Origin: Tepidimonas sediminis
GTDB lineage: Bacteria; Pseudomonadota; Gammaproteobacteria; Burkholderiales; Burkholderiaceae_C
Length of the DNA stretch: 64,000 bases
Direction: 5' to 3'
Assembly (NCBI RefSeq): GCF_007556605.1
Contig: NZ_VJND01000008.1
Coordinates: 1-64,000, forward strand
Part shown: positions 12,971-22,557 of the stretch, piece after piece
Numbering within the stretch: position 1 is the first letter of the stretch
Layout: every line of letters begins with the position of its first letter
Program-made: the position numbers and the translations under genes
The notes under the pieces: model-generated
Databases searched by the model: none
Seen by the model: only the letters and a program-made list of their open reading frames with translations
Told to the model about the DNA's origin: nothing

Positions 12971-12990
12971 GGCCGCTGCGGCGCGCGGCC
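12971..12990. terminator. Possible hairpin between convergent fliR and response regulator gene
   Basis: GGCCGC at 12971-12976 and GCGGCC at 12985-12990 can pair around an 8-base loop exactly between the two convergent stop codons. There is no T-run on either side, so it is at best a GC-rich hairpin and may reflect base composition. Confidence 0.3.
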
Positions 12991-13619
12991 TAGACCAGCT
13001 TGTTGCGGATCGCGTAGACGGTCAGCTCCGCGTTGTTCGACAGCCCCAGCTTTTCCAGCACGCGCGCGCGGTAGACGCTGACGGTCTTCGGGCTGATCAT
13101 CAGCGCCTCGGCGATCTGCGACAGCTTCTTGCCGGAGGCGATGAGCCTGAGTGTCTGCAGCTCGCGCTCCGACAGCGCGTCGTGCGGCTCGCCGCCCTCG
13201 GGCGCCTGCAGGTGGTTGGCCAGCAGCTCGGCGATCTCGGGCGTGATGTACTTGCGCCCCTGCGCCACCGAGCGCACCGCGGCGATGAGGGCCTGCGGGT
13301 CGCCGCCCTTGTTGAGATAGCCCATCGCACCGGCGCGCAGGCAGCGGATCGCGTACTGGTCCTCGGGGTACATGCTGACGATGATGGTGCGCACCGGGCT
13401 GCCCTCGTCGTGCAGCACCGACAGGATCTCCAGCCCGCTGCGGCCCGGCAGATCGACGTCCAGCAGCAGCACGTCGGGCTGCTCGCGTCGCAGCGCCTCG
13501 CGCAGCTCCGGGTAGCTGCCGGCTTCGGCCACGACGCGGATGTCGGTGGCCTCCTGCAGCGTGTCGCGAATGCCGCGGCGCACCACGGCATGGTCGTCGC
13601 ACAGCACCACACGGATCAT
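12990..13619 (-). CDS. LuxR/NarL-family response regulator, GacA/UvrY-like
   Basis: 209 residues. The receiver domain has acidic residues D8/D9 and phospho-acceptor D54 (LLLDVDLPG), with the lysine in GYLNKGG. The C-terminal LuxR-type helix-turn-helix reads LSERELQTLRLIASGKKLSQIAEALMISPKTVSVYRARVLEKL when taken in parts. The spacing and the YITPEIAE linker resemble GacA/UvrY/SirA. It is a DNA-binding transcription regulator. The partner is probably the histidine kinase immediately upstream, only 4 bases away on the same strand. Its place between fliR and the che operon suggests control of motility or a lifestyle switch; that role is inferred. Confidence 0.85.
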   Translation of the reverse strand: MIRVVLCDDHAVVRRGIRDTLQEATDIRVVAEAGSYPELREALRREQPDVLLLDVDLPGRSGLEILSVLHDEGSPVRTIIVSMYPEDQYAIRCLRAGAMGYLNKGGDPQALIAAVRSVAQGRKYITPEIAELLANHLQAPEGGEPHDALSERELQTLRLIASGKKLSQIAEALMISPKTVSVYRARVLEKLGLSNNAELTVYAIRNKLV

Positions 13620-13623
13620 CGGC

Positions 13624-14757
13624 TCAGTCCTCCTCGACGGCGGTCTGCTGGCGCGCCGCCTCGCTCAGCGGAATGGACAGGATCAGGGTCATGCCCTGCC
13701 CCGGCGCGGTGACCACGTCGAGCCAGCCGCCGACCGACTGCGCGCGCTCGCGCAGGCCGAGCAGCCCGAACGAGCGCTCCTTGCGCAGCTCCTCGGGCGC
13801 GGCGCCGCGGCCGTCGTCGGCCACCTCGATCGTCAGATGGTCCTCCAGGTCGCTGACCTCCACCCGCACGCGCCGCGCCTGCGCGTGCTTGAGCACATTG
13901 GTCAGTGCCTCCTGCACGGTGCGGTAGGCCGCCATCTCCACGCGCGCCGGCAGCGCCGTGGCGGTGCGCAGCGCGCCGTGCAGCGTCACCTCCAGCCCGG
14001 TGCGCTCGGCAAAGGTACGCGTCAGCCACTGCAGCGCCGCCATCAGCCCCTGGTCCAGCACCGCCGGGCGCAGGTTGCGCATGATGCGCTGGCTGGCGCC
14101 CAGCGCCTGCTCGGTCATCGTCAGCGCCGAGGCCACGTGCGCCAGCGCCTCGGCGTCGGCGAGGCGGCGCTGCAGCCACGCCAGGTCGAGCTTGACCGCC
14201 GCCAGCGCGCCGCCGATGTCGTCGTGGATCTCGCGCGCGATGTCGGCACGCTCCCGGTCGATGCTGGTCTGCAGGTGCTCGGTCAGCTCCAGCAGGCTCT
14301 GGCGTGACTGCGCCAGCGCCCGCGCGGCCTCGGCCTCGCGGCGGCGCGTGGCGTGCAGCTCCAGCGCGCGCTGCAGCACGTGCGGCAGCCGCCCGAGGTG
14401 CTGCTTGTCGACGTAGTCGCTCACGCCGCGCACCATGGCGTCGGCCACCGTCGCCTCGCCGATGGCGCCGGAGACGAGGATGAACGGCAGATCCAGACCC
14501 TGCGCGCGCATCCACGTCCAGGCCTCCAGCCCGGAAAAACCCGCCAGGTGGTAGTCGGCCAGCACCGCGTCGACCCGCGCCGGCCCGGTCAGGGCCTCCC
14601 GGAACCCCTCCAGCGTGTCCACCAGCTGCACCTCGGCCTCCAGCTCGGCGCGGCGCAGCGCGCGCACCACCAGGCCGTGGTCCACGGGGTTGTCCTCCAG
14701 ATGCACGAGGCGCAGCGCGGGGTCGGAAGGGGCATCCACGGTGACGTCGGTGCGCAA
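13624..14757 (-). CDS. Soluble histidine kinase with N-terminal receiver domain
   Basis: 377 residues from the TTG at 14757. The start is uncertain: a GTG six codons later is the alternative and neither has a clear ribosome site. The order is receiver domain (about 14-130, acceptor D68, conserved lysine K118 in DYVDK), a coiled linker, HisKA_3 dimerisation box with H178 (AREIHDDIGGAL), then a HATPase domain (NVLKHAQA, DDGRGA, GLLGLRERA). No transmembrane or secretion signal is visible, so it is cytosolic and probably receives its signal by phosphotransfer or protein contact at its own receiver. HisKA_3 kinases pair with NarL/LuxR-type regulators, matching the gene just downstream. Confidence 0.85.
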   Translation of the reverse strand: MRTDVTVDAPSDPALRLVHLEDNPVDHGLVVRALRRAELEAEVQLVDTLEGFREALTGPARVDAVLADYHLAGFSGLEAWTWMRAQGLDLPFILVSGAIGEATVADAMVRGVSDYVDKQHLGRLPHVLQRALELHATRRREAEAARALAQSRQSLLELTEHLQTSIDRERADIAREIHDDIGGALAAVKLDLAWLQRRLADAEALAHVASALTMTEQALGASQRIMRNLRPAVLDQGLMAALQWLTRTFAERTGLEVTLHGALRTATALPARVEMAAYRTVQEALTNVLKHAQARRVRVEVSDLEDHLTIEVADDGRGAAPEELRKERSFGLLGLRERAQSVGGWLDVVTAPGQGMTLILSIPLSEAARQQTAVEED

Positions 14758-14846: not shown

Positions 14847-15368
14847 ATGGCCGCTTCGCAACCGACCCCACCGTCCCCGCAGCGCCGCCGCTGGCCGCGC
14901 GAGGAGGTCACCGTGATCGAGCCGCGTCCGCCGGCGCCGCCGGAGGACGAGCCGACCGTGCCGGTGCGGCTGGCCGCGGTGGCCGATCTGCAGGATTCGC
15001 TGCTGGTGGCGATGAACGACCTCAAGCGGCTGGAGGGCCTGCTGGACCACGCCACCAGCAACCTGCTGGACCGGCTCAACCGTGCCGTCGCCGCCGCTGA
15101 CGAGCTGCCGGCCGACGTGGCGCCGGCCACCGTGGCCGAGCTGCGCGAGTCGGTGCGCATGGCGCTGCTGGAGCTGCAGTTCCACGACATGTCCACTCAG
15201 CTGCTGGTGCACGTGGGCAAGGTGCTGCGCGGCTGCGCCTACATGCTGGCCGAGCAGGTCATGGAGCCCGAGGAGGACGAGGTCGGCATGGTGGTCACGC
15301 ACCTGCCTCAAAATCCCAACCCGGTCACGCAAGGCGAGATGGACGCCGGATCCATCGAACTGTTCTGA
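14847..15368 (+). CDS. cheZ: Short CheZ-like CheY-P phosphatase
   Basis: 173 residues, shorter than the roughly 210 of enteric CheZ. The helical part ends in LQFHDMSTQLL (110-120), which aligns with the CheZ active helix DFQDLTGQ and keeps the catalytic pair as D114 and Q118. The C-terminus (TQGEMDAGSIELF, 161-173) resembles the short acidic tail that docks CheZ to CheY. CheZ speeds dephosphorylation of CheY-P. The gene directly precedes cheY. The N-terminal 40 residues are Pro/Arg-rich and probably disordered. The family assignment rests on these two motifs and on context; many annotations would call it hypothetical. Confidence 0.62.
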   Translation: MAASQPTPPSPQRRRWPREEVTVIEPRPPAPPEDEPTVPVRLAAVADLQDSLLVAMNDLKRLEGLLDHATSNLLDRLNRAVAAADELPADVAPATVAELRESVRMALLELQFHDMSTQLLVHVGKVLRGCAYMLAEQVMEPEEDEVGMVVTHLPQNPNPVTQGEMDAGSIELF

Positions 15369-15391: not shown

Positions 15392-15754
15392 ATGCACACG
15401 ATCCTGGCCGTCGACGACTCCGCGTCCATGCGCAAGATGGTTTCCTTCACTTTGGTCGGCGCGGGGTTCCAGGTGGTGGAGGCGGTCGACGGCGTCGACG
15501 CCTTCGAGAAGGCGCAGAAACAGCGCTTCGACCTCGTCCTCACCGACCAGAACATGCCGCGGCTGGACGGCATCGGGCTGGTGCGCAAGCTGCGCGAGCA
15601 GCCCGCCTACGCCCACACGCCGATCCTGATCCTGACCACCGAGTCCAGCGACCAGATGAAGCAGGCAGGACGTGCCGCCGGTGCCACCGGCTGGCTGGTC
15701 AAGCCGTTCGACCCCAACCGGCTCATCGAGGTCATCCGCAAGGTGATCCGCTGA
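15392..15754 (+). CDS. cheY: Chemotaxis response regulator CheY
   Basis: 120 residues, a single receiver domain. D8/D9 bind magnesium, D52 is the phospho-acceptor (TDQNMP), T82 and K104 (LVKPF) are the switch residues. There is no output domain. Phosphorylated by CheA, it binds FliM at the motor. It stands 23 bases after the cheZ-like gene and 31 before cheA. Confidence 0.95.
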   Translation: MHTILAVDDSASMRKMVSFTLVGAGFQVVEAVDGVDAFEKAQKQRFDLVLTDQNMPRLDGIGLVRKLREQPAYAHTPILILTTESSDQMKQAGRAAGATGWLVKPFDPNRLIEVIRKVIR

Positions 15755-15785
15755 TCGTCCCACCCTCACGCCCGGCAGCAAGACC

Positions 15786-18056
15786 ATGGCTGACACCGCC
15801 ACCGACGGCTTCGACCTGACCCAGTTCTATCAGATCTTCTTCGAGGAGGCCGGCGAGAACCTCGAGCAGATGGAGCAGCTGCTGCTCAACCTCGACGTGG
15901 AGACGGTCGACGACGAGACGCTCAACGCGATCTTCCGCTGCGCGCACTCGATCAAGGGCGGCGCGGCCACGTTCGGCTTCGAGGACGTGGCCGAGCTGAC
16001 CCACCAGATGGAATCGCTGCTGGACAAGCTGCGCCGCCACGAGCTCAAGGCCACCGTGCCGATGGTGGACGTGCTGCTGGAATCGAGCGATGCGCTCAAG
16101 GGCCTGCTGGCGCGCCACCAGGGGCTGGGCGGCGAGCCGCCCGAGACCGCGGGCCTGGTGGCGCGCATCCGGGCGCTGGCCAGCGGCCAGGCGGAACCCT
16201 CCCCGGCGCCGCCCCCCGCTCCGGCTCCGGCTCCGGCACCGACACCGGCACCGCTGGGCGCAGGCGGCATGCCCGCTGCAAGCCCGCCGGGCGCACCGCG
16301 GCGCCTGCGTGCGGTCATCGGCCCGCTGGACCGGCTGGAACTGGCCGACCCGATCAAGGACCTGTTCCGCGACATCGCCGGCCTAGGCAGCATCACCGGC
16401 GAGCGCACCGAGGGCCAGCTGCGCATCTACGAAATCGACACCACCAGCAGCGACGACGAGCTGCTCGACCTGTTCTCGTTCCACGTCGCGCGCGAGCAGA
16501 TCCGGCTGGAGCCGCTCGATGGCGCGGCGGCTCCGGCGGCAGCCGCCCCCGCGATGGCGACGCCGAACGAGACGCCGGAGCACAGCCGCGACGTCATCGA
16601 GGAGGGTTACGGCCTGTTCGCCGGCGCGCCCGGCAGCCCGGTGGCGGCCACGCGGCCGGACGCCAGCGGTGCCCCTGCCCCGGCCCCCGACGAGGTGCAC
16701 GGTTATGGCCTGTTCCCGGGCGCACCGGGCAACCCGGTGACGCCGTCGGAGCACGCCGCCGCGCTGCAGGCCGAGGCGCAGGCGCTGGCCACCGCGCAGC
16801 AGCAGGGTCAGCCAGCCTCCGCCGCCGCCAGTGCCGACGCCCGCGCGCGCGAGGCGGCCAAGCAGGCGCGCCAGGCCGCCAACGCGCAGCTGGAGACCAC
16901 CACGCTGCGCGTCTCGGTCAGCAAGATCGACCAGCTGATCAACCAGGTCGGCGAGCTCGTCATCACGCAGGCGATGCTGGCGCAGTACAGCCGCGACCTC
17001 GACGCCACGCTGCACCAGCAGCTGCTGGCGGGCCTGGCGGATCTGGAGCGCAACACCCGGGATCTGCAGGAATCGGTGATGTCGATCCGCATGATCCCGA
17101 TGTCGGTCGTCTTCAGCCGTTTCCCGCGCATGCTGCGCGATCTGGCCACCAAGCTCGGCAAGAAGGTCGAGCTGGTCACGCACGGCGAAGCCACCGAACT
17201 CGACAAGGGCCTGATCGAGAAGATCACCGATCCGCTGACGCACCTGGTGCGCAACAGCTGCGACCACGGCATCGAGCCGCCCGCCGAACGCATCGCCAAG
17301 GGCAAGCCGGAGGTGGGCACGATCACGCTGTCGGCGGCGCACCAGGGCGGCTCGATCCTGATCGAGGTGCGCGACGACGGCCGCGGCCTGTCGCGCGAGA
17401 AGCTGCTGCGCAAGGCGCGCGAGAAGGGCATCCCCTGCTCCGACGACATGAGCGACCAGGAGGTCTGGCAGCTGATCTTCGCGCCGGGCTTTTCCACCGC
17501 CGAGGTGGTCACCGACGTGTCGGGTCGCGGCGTCGGCATGGACGTCGTCAAGAAGAACATCGCCGCGCTGGGCGGCACGGTGGAGATCGACTCGGCCGAG
17601 GGCTACGGCATGAGCGTCAAGGTGCGCCTGCCGCTGACGCTGGCCATCATGGACGGCATGACCGTGCGCGTGGCCGACGAGGTCTACATCCTGCCGCTGT
17701 CGTCGGTGGTCGAGTCGTTCCAGGTCGAATCCACCAGCATCAACACCGTGGCGCAAAGCGCCCAGCTGGTCAAGGTGCGCGACGAGTACATGCCGGTCAT
17801 CGCGCTGGACGAGCTGTTCCAGGTGCCGCGCAAGACCAGCGACGGGGCCAACGGCATCATGGTCGTGATCGAGTCCGACGGGGCGCGCGTGGCGCTGATG
17901 GTCGACGAGCTGCTCGGCCAGCAGCAGGTGGTCATCAAGAACCTGGAGGCCAATTACCGCAAGGTGCCCAACGTCTCCGGCGCCACCATCCTGGGCGACG
18001 GCAGCGTCTCGCTGATCCTGGACACCTCGGCCCTGGTGCGGCGCGTGCGCACATGA
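15786..18056 (+). CDS. cheA: Chemotaxis histidine kinase CheA
   Basis: 756 residues. Order: HPt domain with phosphorylated H54 (RCAHSIKGGAATFGF); a Pro/Ala linker at about 138-172; a CheY-binding-like domain at about 176-245 (LRAVIGPLDRLELADPIKDLF); a long low-complexity linker with two copies of a GYGLF.GAPG.PV motif; dimerisation domain (about 370-430); HATPase domain (HLVRNSCDHGIE, DDGRGL, GRGVGMDVV); and the C-terminal CheW-like domain. CheA autophosphorylates in response to receptors and feeds CheY and CheB. No cheW or receptor gene is present nearby, so those are encoded elsewhere. The stop overlaps the cheR start (ATGA). Confidence 0.96.
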   Translation: MADTATDGFDLTQFYQIFFEEAGENLEQMEQLLLNLDVETVDDETLNAIFRCAHSIKGGAATFGFEDVAELTHQMESLLDKLRRHELKATVPMVDVLLESSDALKGLLARHQGLGGEPPETAGLVARIRALASGQAEPSPAPPPAPAPAPAPTPAPLGAGGMPAASPPGAPRRLRAVIGPLDRLELADPIKDLFRDIAGLGSITGERTEGQLRIYEIDTTSSDDELLDLFSFHVAREQIRLEPLDGAAAPAAAAPAMATPNETPEHSRDVIEEGYGLFAGAPGSPVAATRPDASGAPAPAPDEVHGYGLFPGAPGNPVTPSEHAAALQAEAQALATAQQQGQPASAAASADARAREAAKQARQAANAQLETTTLRVSVSKIDQLINQVGELVITQAMLAQYSRDLDATLHQQLLAGLADLERNTRDLQESVMSIRMIPMSVVFSRFPRMLRDLATKLGKKVELVTHGEATELDKGLIEKITDPLTHLVRNSCDHGIEPPAERIAKGKPEVGTITLSAAHQGGSILIEVRDDGRGLSREKLLRKAREKGIPCSDDMSDQEVWQLIFAPGFSTAEVVTDVSGRGVGMDVVKKNIAALGGTVEIDSAEGYGMSVKVRLPLTLAIMDGMTVRVADEVYILPLSSVVESFQVESTSINTVAQSAQLVKVRDEYMPVIALDELFQVPRKTSDGANGIMVVIESDGARVALMVDELLGQQQVVIKNLEANYRKVPNVSGATILGDGSVSLILDTSALVRRVRT
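16605..16739 (+). repeat. Two copies of a 13-residue motif inside the CheA linker
   Basis: Codons at 16605-16643 encode GYGLFAGAPGSPV and codons at 16701-16739 encode GYGLFPGAPGNPV. The two copies differ at two residues and are separated by 57 bases of Ala/Pro/Asp-rich linker. They lie between the CheY-binding-like domain and the dimerisation domain. Confidence 0.8.
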
Positions 18057-18889
18057 AGCCGGAGGCCGCCGCCCAGCTGCAGGCGCGCGAATTCGCGTGG
18101 ACGCCGGCGGACTTCGAGCGCATCCGCCAGCTGATCTACCGTCACGCCGGCATCAGCCTGCACGAGGGCAAGCAGGCCATGGTCTACAGCCGCGTCTCGC
18201 GCCGCCTGCGCGAGACCGGCCACGACAGCTTCCGCGCCTACCTCGACTGGCTGGAAAGCAGCGGCGACGCGCAGGAGTGGCAGGAGTTCGTCAACGCGCT
18301 GACCACCAACCTGACCTCGTTCTTCCGCGAGAACCACCACTTCGTCGAGCTGGCGCGGCTGGCGCGCGAGCAGCCGGGCCTGGACTGGAAGATCTGGTGC
18401 GCCGCCGCCTCCACCGGCGAGGAGCCGTATTCGATCGCCATCACGATGGCCGATGTCCTCGGCGTGGGCGGGCGCTTCCGCATCTGGGCCAGCGACATCG
18501 ACACGCGCGTGCTGCAGACCGCGCAGCGCGGCGTCTACAAGCTCGAGCAGCTCAAGCCCCTGACGCCCGAGCAGCTGCGCCGCTATTTCCTGCGCGGCAA
18601 GGGCGCCAACGAGGGGCTGGCGCGCGTCAAGCCCGAGCTGCAGCGACATCTGCAGTTCTTCACGCTCAACCTGGTCGACGAGCACTGGCCGCTGCAGGAG
18701 ACATTCGACGCCGTCTTCTGCCGCAACGTGATGATCTATTTCGATCACGCCACGCAGCGGCGCGTGCTGGCGCGCATCCACCGCGTGCTCAAGCCCCACG
18801 GCACGCTGTTCGTCGGCCATGCCGAGAACTTCTCCGACGCGCGCGACCTGTTCCGCCTGCGCGGCAAGACCATCTACGAAAGACTATGA
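18053..18889 (+). CDS. cheR: Chemotaxis receptor methyltransferase CheR
   Basis: 278 residues. The N-terminal helical domain is followed by the methyltransferase domain with the S-adenosylmethionine loop (AAASTGEEPYSIA), the ASDID motif and CRNVMIYF. CheR methylates glutamates of the chemoreceptors and so sets adaptation. It overlaps cheA by ATGA at its start and cheD by ATGA at its end, indicating coupled translation. Confidence 0.96.
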   Translation: MKPEAAAQLQAREFAWTPADFERIRQLIYRHAGISLHEGKQAMVYSRVSRRLRETGHDSFRAYLDWLESSGDAQEWQEFVNALTTNLTSFFRENHHFVELARLAREQPGLDWKIWCAAASTGEEPYSIAITMADVLGVGGRFRIWASDIDTRVLQTAQRGVYKLEQLKPLTPEQLRRYFLRGKGANEGLARVKPELQRHLQFFTLNLVDEHWPLQETFDAVFCRNVMIYFDHATQRRVLARIHRVLKPHGTLFVGHAENFSDARDLFRLRGKTIYERL

Positions 18890-19521
18890 CGTCGTCGGTG
18901 CACTCCCCCGCGCACGTGCAGGTGCTCAAGTCCCGTCCGCGCAAGCCGGGCGAGGCCTCGTTCTTCTTCTACGACCAGCACTTCCGCTACGCCGCCGCCA
19001 AGGTGCTGCCGGGCGAGTACTACGTCACGGACGAGGACATTCTCATCATGACGGTGCTGGGCTCGTGCATCGCGGCCTGCATCTGGGATTCGCGGCTGCG
19101 CATCGGCGGCATGAACCACTTCATGCTGCCCGAGGGCGGCGCCGACACCTCCGGGCGCTACGGTTCCTACGCCATGGAGCTGCTGATCAACGAGCTGATC
19201 AAGCGCGGCTCCACGCGCGAGTACATGCAGGCCAAGGTGTTCGGCGGCGGCGCCGTGATCGCCGGCATGACGTCGATGAACGTCGGCGAGCGCAACACGC
19301 TGTTCGTGCTGGACTACCTGGCCACCGAGCGCATCCCGGTGGTGTCCAAGGACGTCATGGACATCTACCCGCGCAAGGTGGTGTTCTTCCCCGTCACCGG
19401 CAAGGCCATGGTCAAGCGCCTGGCGCACGCCCACCCCGACGTGCTGGAGCAGCAGGAGCGTCAGGGCACCGCCACGCGGCTGGCGCAGGCGCGCGCCGGC
19501 GGCACGGTGGATCTGTTCTGA
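18886..19521 (+). CDS. cheD: Chemoreceptor glutamine deamidase CheD
   Basis: 211 residues. The catalytic cysteine lies in VLGSCIAACIWD and the catalytic histidine in GGMNHFMLP; FGGGAVI is also conserved. CheD deamidates receptor glutamines. The longer upstream frame lies across cheR; I chose the ATG at 18886, which overlaps the cheR stop. cheB begins 21 bases downstream. Confidence 0.95.
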   Translation: MTSSVHSPAHVQVLKSRPRKPGEASFFFYDQHFRYAAAKVLPGEYYVTDEDILIMTVLGSCIAACIWDSRLRIGGMNHFMLPEGGADTSGRYGSYAMELLINELIKRGSTREYMQAKVFGGGAVIAGMTSMNVGERNTLFVLDYLATERIPVVSKDVMDIYPRKVVFFPVTGKAMVKRLAHAHPDVLEQQERQGTATRLAQARAGGTVDLF

Positions 19522-19542: not shown

Positions 19543-20652
19543 ATGCCGAAGATCAAGGTGGTCGTGGTCGACGACTCGGCGCTGGTGCGCAGCCTGCTGG
19601 CCGAGATCATCAACAGGCAGCCGGACATGGAGTGCGTCGGCACCGCCGCCGACCCGCTGCAGGCGCGCGAGATCATCCGCGAGCGCAACCCGGACGTCAT
19701 CACGCTCGACGTCGAGATGCCGAAGATGGACGGGCTGGAGTTCCTGGCGCGCCTGATGCGGCTGCGCCCCACCCCGGTGGTCATGGTCTCGACGCTGACC
19801 GAGCAGGGCGCGGAGACGACGCTCAAGGCCCTGGAGCTGGGCGCGGTGGACTTCGTCGCCAAGCCCCGCATCGGCGTCACCGCCGGGCTGCAGGAACTCG
19901 CGGACGACATCGTCGAGAAGATCCGCATCGCCGCCAAGGCGCACGTGCGCCGGCTGGTCAGTCCACCGCCGGCGGCGCCCACCGTGGCAGCCGCCCATGC
20001 GGGCACCGCCCTGACCGCCCCGCTGCCCCCCGCCGCCAGCCCGGCGCCGATCCGCCTGTCCACCGAGAAGGTGATCTGCATCGGCGCTTCCACCGGCGGC
20101 ACCGAGGCGATCAAGGAGATCCTGATGGAGCTGCCGGCCGACGCACCGGCGGTGGTCATCACCCAGCACATGCCGCCCGGCTTCACCGCCAGCTTCGCCG
20201 CGCGGCTCGACAGCCTGTGCCGCATCCGCGTCGCCGAGGCGCGCGATGGCGAGCGCATCCTGCCCGGCCACGCCTACATCGCCCCCGGCGGCAAGCAGTT
20301 CTCGATCGCGCGCAGCGGCGCCAACTACGTCGCCGTGGTCGACGACTCGCCGCCGGTCAACCGCCACAAGCCGTCGGTGGAGGTGCTGTTCCGCTCGTGC
20401 GCGCGCGTGCTCGGCCCCAACGCCATCGGCGTGATGCTGACCGGCATGGGTGGCGACGGCGCGCAGGCGATGAAGGAGATGCGCGACGCCGGCGCCTACA
20501 ACATCGCGCAGGACGAAGCCAGCTGCGTCGTCTTCGGCATGCCGAAGATGGCCATCCAAGCCGGCGCGGTGCACGCCGTGCTGCCGCTCAAGCAGATCGC
20601 GCGCGCCATCATGGAGCGAGTGGCGGCCGCCGGCGTGCGCCACCGCATCTGA
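19543..20652 (+). CDS. cheB: Chemotaxis methylesterase/deamidase CheB
   Basis: 369 residues. The receiver domain has D10/D11 and acceptor D56 ([11 protein letters not shown]), followed by a Pro/Ala linker at about 145-170 and the methylesterase domain with the serine in [10 protein letters not shown], the histidine in QHMPPGFT and the aspartate in GMGGDGA. It removes receptor methyl groups when phosphorylated by CheA. It is the last gene of the che operon and converges on the minus-strand gene at 20683. Confidence 0.96.
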
Positions 20653-20682: not shown

Positions 20683-21423
20683 TCAGACCAGCCGGTCGAT
20701 GCGCGGGCCCGGCTTGGCATCGCGACCGGCACCGTCCGCCGCCACGCCATAGGACTGCTGCGGCTCACCCGGCGGCAGGCTGGCCAGCGGACGGGCGTTG
20801 AGGCGCTGGTGCAGCTCCTCCAGCTTCTGCGCGCGCTCGGCCGCCGCCTTGCGCGCCTCCTCGCCGATCACCATGTCGACCGCCGTGCGGCTGGCCTTCC
20901 AGAGGTTGGGCAGCAACTCCTTGATCTGCGTATCCAGCGCCTCCAGCGCCGGGTTCTTCACGGGCGGGTAGCCTTCGTCCTGGGCGTCGGACCGCTGCGC
21001 CGGCTCGCTGCGCTGCGCCTCCCCGCGAGCCTGGGCACGGCGCTCCTCGGCGCGGCGGCCGGCGTCCTCGGCGCGCGCGCGCTCCGCGCGGTCCTGCTGA
21101 GCCTGCTGCGCAGCGGCCTGGGCCTGCTCGCGCGGCCCCGGCTCCGGCCGCCCCTGCGCCGGCGGCAGGCCGGCGCGCTCCGGCGCGGCGGCGTTGACCT
21201 GCGGATCGGGTCGCTGGGTCTCCTGCGCAGGGGCCACGGGCGCCAGCGGCGGCGTCGCGGCCGCCTGCACCCGCCCCGCCTCGCCCTGCGGGGTGACCTG
21301 CGCCGGTGCGGCGGCGTCGCGGGCCACCGCGTTGCCGGGCCGTACCGGCGTGACCGGCTGCGCACGCACGACCGGCGTCGCCTGCGGCGACGGTGCTACG
21401 GCGATCGATGAGATGGTCAACAT
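20683..21423 (-). CDS. Unrecognised FliA-dependent protein of the motility locus
   Basis: 246 residues, no family recognised. About residues 1-140 are Ala/Pro/Gln-rich with a strongly charged Arg/Glu/Gln stretch that looks disordered or coiled. The C-terminal part (about 155-246) has an ordered-looking segment, NPALEALDTQIKELLPNLWK followed by ASRTAVDMVIGEEARKAAAE. There is no signal peptide and no strong membrane helix. The ATG at 21423 has GAGGA in front. A near-perfect FliA promoter (21483-21509) precedes it, so it should be expressed with late flagellar genes. Its function is unknown; a chaperone, export substrate or motor accessory are all possible. Confidence 0.7.
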   Translation of the reverse strand: MLTISSIAVAPSPQATPVVRAQPVTPVRPGNAVARDAAAPAQVTPQGEAGRVQAAATPPLAPVAPAQETQRPDPQVNAAAPERAGLPPAQGRPEPGPREQAQAAAQQAQQDRAERARAEDAGRRAEERRAQARGEAQRSEPAQRSDAQDEGYPPVKNPALEALDTQIKELLPNLWKASRTAVDMVIGEEARKAAAERAQKLEELHQRLNARPLASLPPGEPQQSYGVAADGAGRDAKPGPRIDRLV

Positions 21424-21482
21424 GGCGCATTCCTCGGCTTGACGAGCCCATCCGCAGGACCCACGCCCCGCGGTCCTCCCTG

Positions 21483-21509
21483 TTATCGGCCGGCTTGAGC
21501 CGGACTTTA
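21483..21509 (-). promoter_or_regulatory. FliA (sigma-28) promoter for the unrecognised motility gene
   Basis: Read on the minus strand: TAAA (21509-21506), exactly 15 bases, then GCCGATAA (21490-21483). All twelve key bases match the sigma-28 consensus. The spacer contains a CCGGCT..AGCCGG inverted repeat. The start codon is about 60 bases downstream. Confidence 0.88.
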
Positions 21510-21524
21510 GGGCCTTGTGGCACG

Positions 21525-21552
21525 TTTTTCAACCTCACGCTGGCCGTACAAT
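21525..21552 (+). promoter_or_regulatory. Candidate sigma-70 promoter for ilvE
   Basis: TTTTTC at 21525-21530, 16 bases, then TACAAT at 21547-21552. The -10 is good and the -35 weak. It lies 70 bases before the ilvE start and back to back with the FliA promoter on the other strand. Confidence 0.45.
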
Positions 21553-21621: not shown

Positions 21622-22557
21622 ATGGCAACCCCGCTCCCGCTGCACGACCGCGACGGCAAGATCTGGATGGACGGCGAACTCGTCGACTGGCGCGACGCCA
21701 AGGTGCACGTGCTGACGCACACGTTGCACTACGGCTGCGGCGCCTTCGAGGGCGTGCGCGCCTACAGGACCGAGCGCGGCACGGCGATCTTCCGCCTGCA
21801 GGAGCACACCGAGCGCCTGTTCAACAGCGCCAAGATCCTGCGCATGCAGATCCCGTTCAGCATGGAGGAGGTCAACGAGGCGCAGCGCGCCGTCATCCGC
21901 GCCAACGGGCTGGAAAGCGGCTACATCCGTCCGCTGACCTGGATCGGGTCGGAAAAGCTCGGCGTCAGCCCCAAGGGCAACCGCGTGCACCTGATGGTGG
22001 CGGCCTGGGCCTGGGGCGCCTACCTCGGCGAAGAGGGCATGAAGCGCGGCATCCGCGTCAAGACCTCCAGCTACACGCGCCACCACGTCAACATCACGAT
22101 GACGCAGGCCAAGACGGTGTCCAACTACACCAACTCCATCCTGGCCAACATGGAGGCCACCGACGACGGCTACGACGAGGCGCTGCTGCTCGACCCGGCC
22201 GGCTTCGTCTCCGAAGGCGCCGGCGAAAACCTCTTCATCGTCAAGGGCGGCGTCATCTACACGCCGGACCTGTCGGCCGGCGCGCTCAACGGCATCACGC
22301 GCAACACCGTGCTGCACATCGCCAAGGACCTGGGCCTGGAGGTGGTGCAGAAGCGCATCACGCGCGACGAGGTCTACATCGCCGATGAGGCCTTCTTCAC
22401 CGGCACCGCCGCCGAGGTCACGCCGATCCGCGAACTCGACCGCATCCAGATCGGCGCCGGCCAGCGCGGCCCGATCACCGAGCGCATCCAGAGCGCCTTC
22501 TTCGACATCGTCAACGGCCGCAACCCGAAGTACGCGCACTGGCTTACGCCGGTGTGA
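21622..22557 (+). CDS. ilvE: Branched-chain amino acid aminotransferase
   Basis: 311 residues, a class IV pyridoxal-phosphate aminotransferase. THTLHYGCGAFEGVRAY near the N-terminus is the IlvE signature. K164 (QAKTVSNYTNS) is the expected cofactor lysine, and EGAGENLF and FFTGTAAEVTPI are conserved. It performs the last step of leucine, isoleucine and valine synthesis with glutamate as amino donor. The ATG at 21622 is preceded by AAGGA; a longer frame upstream adds 35 non-conserved residues. Confidence 0.96.
   Translation: MATPLPLHDRDGKIWMDGELVDWRDAKVHVLTHTLHYGCGAFEGVRAYRTERGTAIFRLQEHTERLFNSAKILRMQIPFSMEEVNEAQRAVIRANGLESGYIRPLTWIGSEKLGVSPKGNRVHLMVAAWAWGAYLGEEGMKRGIRVKTSSYTRHHVNITMTQAKTVSNYTNSILANMEATDDGYDEALLLDPAGFVSEGAGENLFIVKGGVIYTPDLSAGALNGITRNTVLHIAKDLGLEVVQKRITRDEVYIADEAFFTGTAAEVTPIRELDRIQIGAGQRGPITERIQSAFFDIVNGRNPKYAHWLTPV

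Follow-up and report, generated by a model that had tools for sequence, protein, structure and literature searches.

What might be the product of a gene that stands beside a chemotaxis operon, belongs to no named family and is preceded by a perfect match to the FliA-type (sigma-28) promoter? The gene, encoding a protein here called P0001, lies in a 64,000-nucleotide stretch of the Tepidimonas sediminis genome, the whole of which was analyzed and is referred to as the window (Table 1). An initial annotation, made from the sequence alone, had placed it at the end of the che operon. It does adjoin the operon, the P0001 and cheB open reading frames ending 30 bases apart (20683 versus 20652), but the two genes are convergent, and the P0001 gene is therefore a transcription unit of its own beside the operon rather than a member of it. 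The FliA-type site is intergenic, between the P0001 gene and the divergent aminotransferase gene.

Table 1. Features of the P0001 locus, in window coordinates
Feature	Position	Strand	Remarks
ORF of the unnamed protein (P0001)	20683..21423	-	ATG start, 246 aa; orthologues and alignment A1
FliA-type (sigma-28) promoter, TAAA-N15-GCCGATAA	21483..21509	-	-35 at 21506-21509, -10 at 21483-21490
Stretch from -10 to start codon (leader and bases before transcript start)	21424..21482	-	length kept
Conserved N-terminal motif, residues 1-23	21355..21423	-	alignments A1 and A4
Conserved helical core, residues 155-190	20854..20961	-	W-x-A-S; W, A and S invariant in A4 and A8
C-terminal tail, residues 225-246	20686..20751	-	Tyr225 invariant in A4
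cheB, convergent neighbor	19543..20652	+	Pfam CheB_methylest and Response_reg
Class IV aminotransferase gene, divergent neighbor	21625..22557	+	Pfam Aminotran_4
cheY-cheA-cheR-cheD, the row that closes with cheB	15392..19521	+	Pfam; gene order conserved

Two other features of the region are recorded here. Between fliR and the che genes, on the opposite strand (12990–14757, minus), lie a response regulator and a sensor kinase, both recognized by eye. An ORF before cheY (14847–15368, plus) is kept in many che-type loci at 55–91% identity and has no Pfam match at E 0.001.

The FliA-type site stands before the unnamed ORF as the initial annotation described it: TAAA-N15-GCCGATAA agrees with the consensus at 12 of 12 key bases, without a mismatch, and is better than the site before fliS (505–531), which has two mismatches (10/12). 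In a genome-wide pattern search it is the sole 12/12 match in 2.53 Mb. Three sites have one mismatch, of which one precedes flgM (11/12), one precedes a repeat protein gene and one, with no plausible gene behind it, is apparently due to chance; the reversed FliA pattern, run on the same genome as a control, gives 1 match. Allowing up to three mismatches, the window holds eight FliA-type sites (the remaining six with three mismatches each) versus a mean of 4.2 in 100 shuffles, nine of which reach eight, so weak FliA-type sites are near chance. Among the sites listed for the two flagellin genes of the same genome, one gene has a 9/12 site and the other at most 8, and, with the spacer set at 15 bases, 7 of 14 flagellin upstream stretches reach 10/12 or better.

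Flagellar class-3 genes form some of the best studied regulons, and this family is still without a Pfam or NCBIfam model. The earlier statement that the protein has no recognized family is borne out when the protein and six homologues are compared with Pfam and NCBIfam, and 11 core sequences with Pfam: nothing rises above cut-off. Weak matches to T4SS, BTH_I2711-like, MotB, NAM-associated and other families were discarded, being below cut-offs and mutually inconsistent. Two profile searches of solved structures give best E values of 1.1 or worse, and a literature search, judged from titles and the openings of abstracts, yields no report on the family. The available portion of one Acidovorax report mentions a hypothetical protein with an FlhDC box, which goes nameless in that text (PMC12888815).

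Profile searches for homologues, which the initial annotation had suggested, reveal a family of two branches that has kept the FliA-type promoter. The gene is present in 10 of 10 congeners tested (11 of 60 genomes including its own; one copy is interrupted by contig ends). A core profile matches 23 of 399 family genomes, and a wider core profile (A3) matches 90 of the 399, comprising 25 strong (E < 1e-8) and 65 weak matches (E 5.5e-5 to 0.0932). Thirty of the weak matches, chosen by match strength and open-frame size, were retrieved, and all form one coherent second branch of 143–168 aa where complete; several of the other 35 are carriers in a later search with a second-branch profile. Members of the second branch follow the plan of the first: their start is conserved and their middle variable, followed by a helix reading MW[RK]AS...V[DE] or nearly so and a Tyr near the end. 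The profile of 23 second-branch members matches 55 of 250 genomes in 33 of 141 genera, or 53 genomes in 31 genera once first-branch G170 and G235 (two genera) are removed; these matches were not all viewed singly, and the weakest of them (E 6.3e-5 and 3.1e-6) are possibly unreliable. Those two aside, none of the 250 genomes appears in both branch lists. In a profile-profile comparison, 22 columns link the two branches (E 5.1e-6, probability 86), a score that is not independent because the second branch was found with the profile of the first. Order-wide searches give strong matches only within the same family (2 of 300 and 6 of 320 genomes), five further matches in the 320-genome search (E 0.014–0.047) being taken as chance without inspection, and a plasmid search gives no match. 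As far as searched, the family is limited to the Burkholderiales family containing Tepidimonas.

To score the promoter across homologues, we used a fixed consensus with a fixed 15-base spacer and took the highest-scoring site within 150 bases upstream of each start. Duplicate loci from one genome were counted once, and two genes cut by contig ends (L121 and L125) and a Tepidimonas gene in two pieces (G003) were left out of these and the cysteine counts; the start of L128 is placed one codon late. A site of at least 9/12 precedes 26 of the 28 genes in the first branch and 21 of the 28 in the second, which are related sequences and not independent observations; among the 150-base control windows, 63 of 3887 and 61 of 3980 (∼1.6%) reach this score. 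In 25 of the 28 first-branch genes the site lies at a shared position 79–87 bases before the start, and in the second branch it lies 80–96 bases before the ATG (79–96 for both together), such that site and position are kept at 9/12 or better in 46 of 56 diverged homologues. Both boxes and the distance between them are conserved, and the spacer sequence varies. The first-branch exceptions are L039 (T. thermarum), where a site of at least 9/12 exists but elsewhere, L062, which likewise has no site at the shared position, and L064, with a score of 8; seven of the 28 second-branch genes score 7 or 8. The L039 gene lies near a contig edge and is open, though the 154 bases before it lack the usual site; promoter loss or rearrangement is possible there. 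A pattern built from the second-branch promoter and run on six genomes recovers only the gene itself in five and nothing in the sixth, and so does not describe a promoter common to other genes there. For the second branch, we assign the site to the FliA type from its two spaced boxes and their position. Putative control by FliA is the best supported part of our interpretation and is well supported at the level of sequence, and expression of P0001 very probably depends on FliA in the cell.

The leaders themselves show no shared fold. RNAalifold, applied to 16 of 25 and 19 of 26 leaders, yields 4 pairs for one of the branches and no pairs for the other, and Rfam has no match to the leaders; a structured leader, seen in folds of single sequences, was dropped on these grounds. 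Many second-branch genes (L098–L126) share a TACGA word right after the −10 box, where single sequences fold into a hairpin.

The family tracks flagella. A flagellin-type N domain is encoded in 188 of 250 family genomes, including all 55 matched by the second-branch profile. Combining these 55 with 18 strong first-branch carriers, two of which are in both sets, gives 71 carriers, of which 70 have flagellin versus 118 of the 179 other genomes (Fisher p 1.1e-9, uncorrected for phylogeny); a genus-level test of second-branch profile matches against flagellin gives p 1.2e-5. The single carrier without flagellin (G090) is a 330-contig assembly that has che genes (L054). Homologues found only outside flagellated bacteria, which would have spoken against the initial annotation, are thus not what we see. 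No member was detected in 118 of the 188 flagellated genomes, so the protein is accessory or some members are too diverged to detect. The family is almost confined to flagellated relatives and carries a FliA-type switch; P0001 is therefore probably a flagellar accessory protein, and a role in the flagellar pathway is likely. With conserved members in about 40 of the 141 genera sampled from a single bacterial family, this protein family is a tangible candidate for a flagellar component or regulator peculiar to the lineage.

From its sequence, the product is predicted to be soluble, cysteine free and mostly disordered, with conserved ends. Homologues range from 143 to 308 aa, and none of the 56 has a membrane span (highest 19-residue Kyte-Doolittle mean 1.41). 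The AlphaFold2 model of P0001 is of low confidence and without a tertiary fold (mean pLDDT 62, pTM 0.25), with no confident structure for residues 1–90 and two separate helices, 97–139 and 158–210. A second-branch model, likewise of low confidence and without a tertiary fold (pTM 0.20), has one helix, 87–126. Alignments of homologues show conserved ends flanking a variable, disordered middle. The disordered arm and conserved helical C terminus first proposed for this protein are thus consistent with both models and alignments, except that helix 97–139 is not conserved beyond the genus; only helix 158–210 falls in the stretch that is. The core helix is amphipathic in the six sequences tested, with 0 to 3.3% of shuffles as strong.

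No cysteine occurs in the 10,918 residues of the 56 homologues, versus 451 in 64,114 residues of the che, aminotransferase and 14847-ORF stretches (related loci, duplicates kept). Cysteine is missing from flagellins and from most flagellar proteins that are exported, and it is generally scarce in disordered proteins. Because CheY and the FliF, FliG and FliN of the window are also free of cysteine, its absence is weak evidence, consistent with export.

Among known systems, P0001 most readily invites comparison with the anti-sigma-28 factor FlgM (PF04316), with which it shares a FliA-type promoter, a disordered Pro/Ala-rich start, a helical C-terminal region and, judging from the FlgM of the same genome, the lack of cysteine. 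Conserved ends and a variable disordered middle are also the layout of FlgM. In contrast to FlgM, however, the family is longer and has the W-x-A-S helix, which is not seen in the genome's own FlgM, and a separate, normal flgM with its own FliA-type site lies elsewhere in the genome. P0001 has no Pfam match to PF04316 at E up to 10 and no BLAST similarity to its own FlgM. The export chaperones FliS, FliT and FlgN share with P0001 a place in the flagellar gene set and a helical part, but its low-confidence models give separate helices and no bundle. The earlier suggestion of a chaperone finds no backing as regards a chaperone of this type: none of the three Pfam families is matched (E up to 10; homologues, E up to 1), FliS (by Pfam) and FlgM are encoded separately, and ORFs resembling FliT and FlgN are present by eye. 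FliK and other disordered export substrates have a similar Ala/Pro/Gln-rich composition; unlike FliK, P0001 has no FliK domain by Pfam, is much shorter and has a FliA-type promoter.

Starting from the gene, its conserved promoter, its conserved ends and its co-occurrence with flagellin, all of which are established at the level of sequence, we tentatively suggest that P0001 is a class-3 (sigma-28-dependent) flagellar accessory protein, perhaps an FlgM-like late export substrate or adaptor. P0001 would be made once completion of the hook sets FliA free. The N-terminal segment could direct the protein into late flagellar type III export, and the amphipathic W-x-A-S helix could bind a partner, be it a chaperone, FliA itself or some component of the export machinery or the motor; the protein would thereby work as an FlgM-like secreted or secretion-coupled regulator. 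The accessible part of one report describes FlgM as a late substrate, secreted when the hook-basal body is complete (PMC13344023). We rank this reading first because it agrees with the composition, the class-3 promoter and the arrangement of conserved ends around a disordered middle that varies; export or partner binding as the mode of action is itself a guarded proposal. The interpretation in the initial annotation is, overall, partly supported.

The surroundings of the gene bear on the main rival, a cytosolic adaptor serving chemotaxis or the switch/motor. In this view the W-x-A-S helix would bind a protein of the Che set or of the switch, with the disordered arms tethering or tuning it, and the adaptor would be produced together with the chemotaxis machinery. 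Of 28 first-branch genes, 25 are directly beside cheB and convergent with it, two (L063 and L128) are ∼3 kb from cheB, and one (L127) has no cheB within the 12 kb examined; this neighborhood makes the adaptor the main rival, and an amphipathic helix and FliA-type promoter would suit it. However, the neighborhood is not retained in the second branch, where none of 30 loci (4–12 kb each) has any of 13 window query proteins nearby at E 1e-8 (11 che and flagellar proteins, the aminotransferase and the 14847 ORF). Because of this, and because the gene is on the strand opposite cheB, the cheB neighborhood is weak evidence of function, and we regard an adaptor as rather unlikely. An internal regulator of FliA or FlhDC, that is, an additional anti-sigma factor or anti-activator feeding back on class 2 or 3 genes, would account for a promoter like that of flgM and for the FlgM-like layout, but the absence of FlgM profile and BLAST matches and the presence of a normal flgM argue against it, and we consider it unlikely.

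FliA regulons include non-flagellar genes, and P0001 could be a FliA-controlled protein of this kind, useful to swimming cells in surface behavior, matrix or metabolism. The second branch does lie among genes without a flagellar look; by eye, four of its loci contain what we take to be gspF-like genes (three) and a cyanophycin-synthetase-like gene (one). The near-universal presence of flagellin in carriers speaks against this explanation, as does the lack of an enzyme or surface domain by Pfam, and we think it improbable. A chance promoter match before a housekeeping or sigma-70-driven gene would be compatible with an overlapping sigma-70-like site, TTGAAA-N17-TAAAGT (9/12; 21504–21532, minus), which shares bases with the FliA −35 box; 1 such match is found versus a mean of 0.0 in 50 shuffles, and TTGAAA is present in several, though not all, congeners. 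According to the available part of an E. coli study, no more than 5 of the 30 FliA sites inside genes could be linked to changes in RNA (PMC4183435), so a FliA site is by itself no proof of control. Conservation of the site and its position across the diverged homologues, together with the flagellin co-occurrence, makes an accidental match very improbable.

A bolder version of the FlgM-like reading, which we offer as a long shot, is that P0001 provides a second, lineage-specific checkpoint in flagellar assembly. It would be made under FliA and exported through the finished hook like FlgM, its W-x-A-S helix informing a partner that is not FliA about the state of export, with the normal FlgM kept.

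Finally, the near-perfect FliA-type site elsewhere in the genome (G000:C23:193056-193082) precedes the repeat protein gene mentioned above (locus L132, gene from 1624). The encoded protein is at least 468 aa long, the locus ending there, starts with MSIISSLTPTQ and is built of LT-x-x-Q repeats; it is a candidate FliA-controlled surface or secreted protein.
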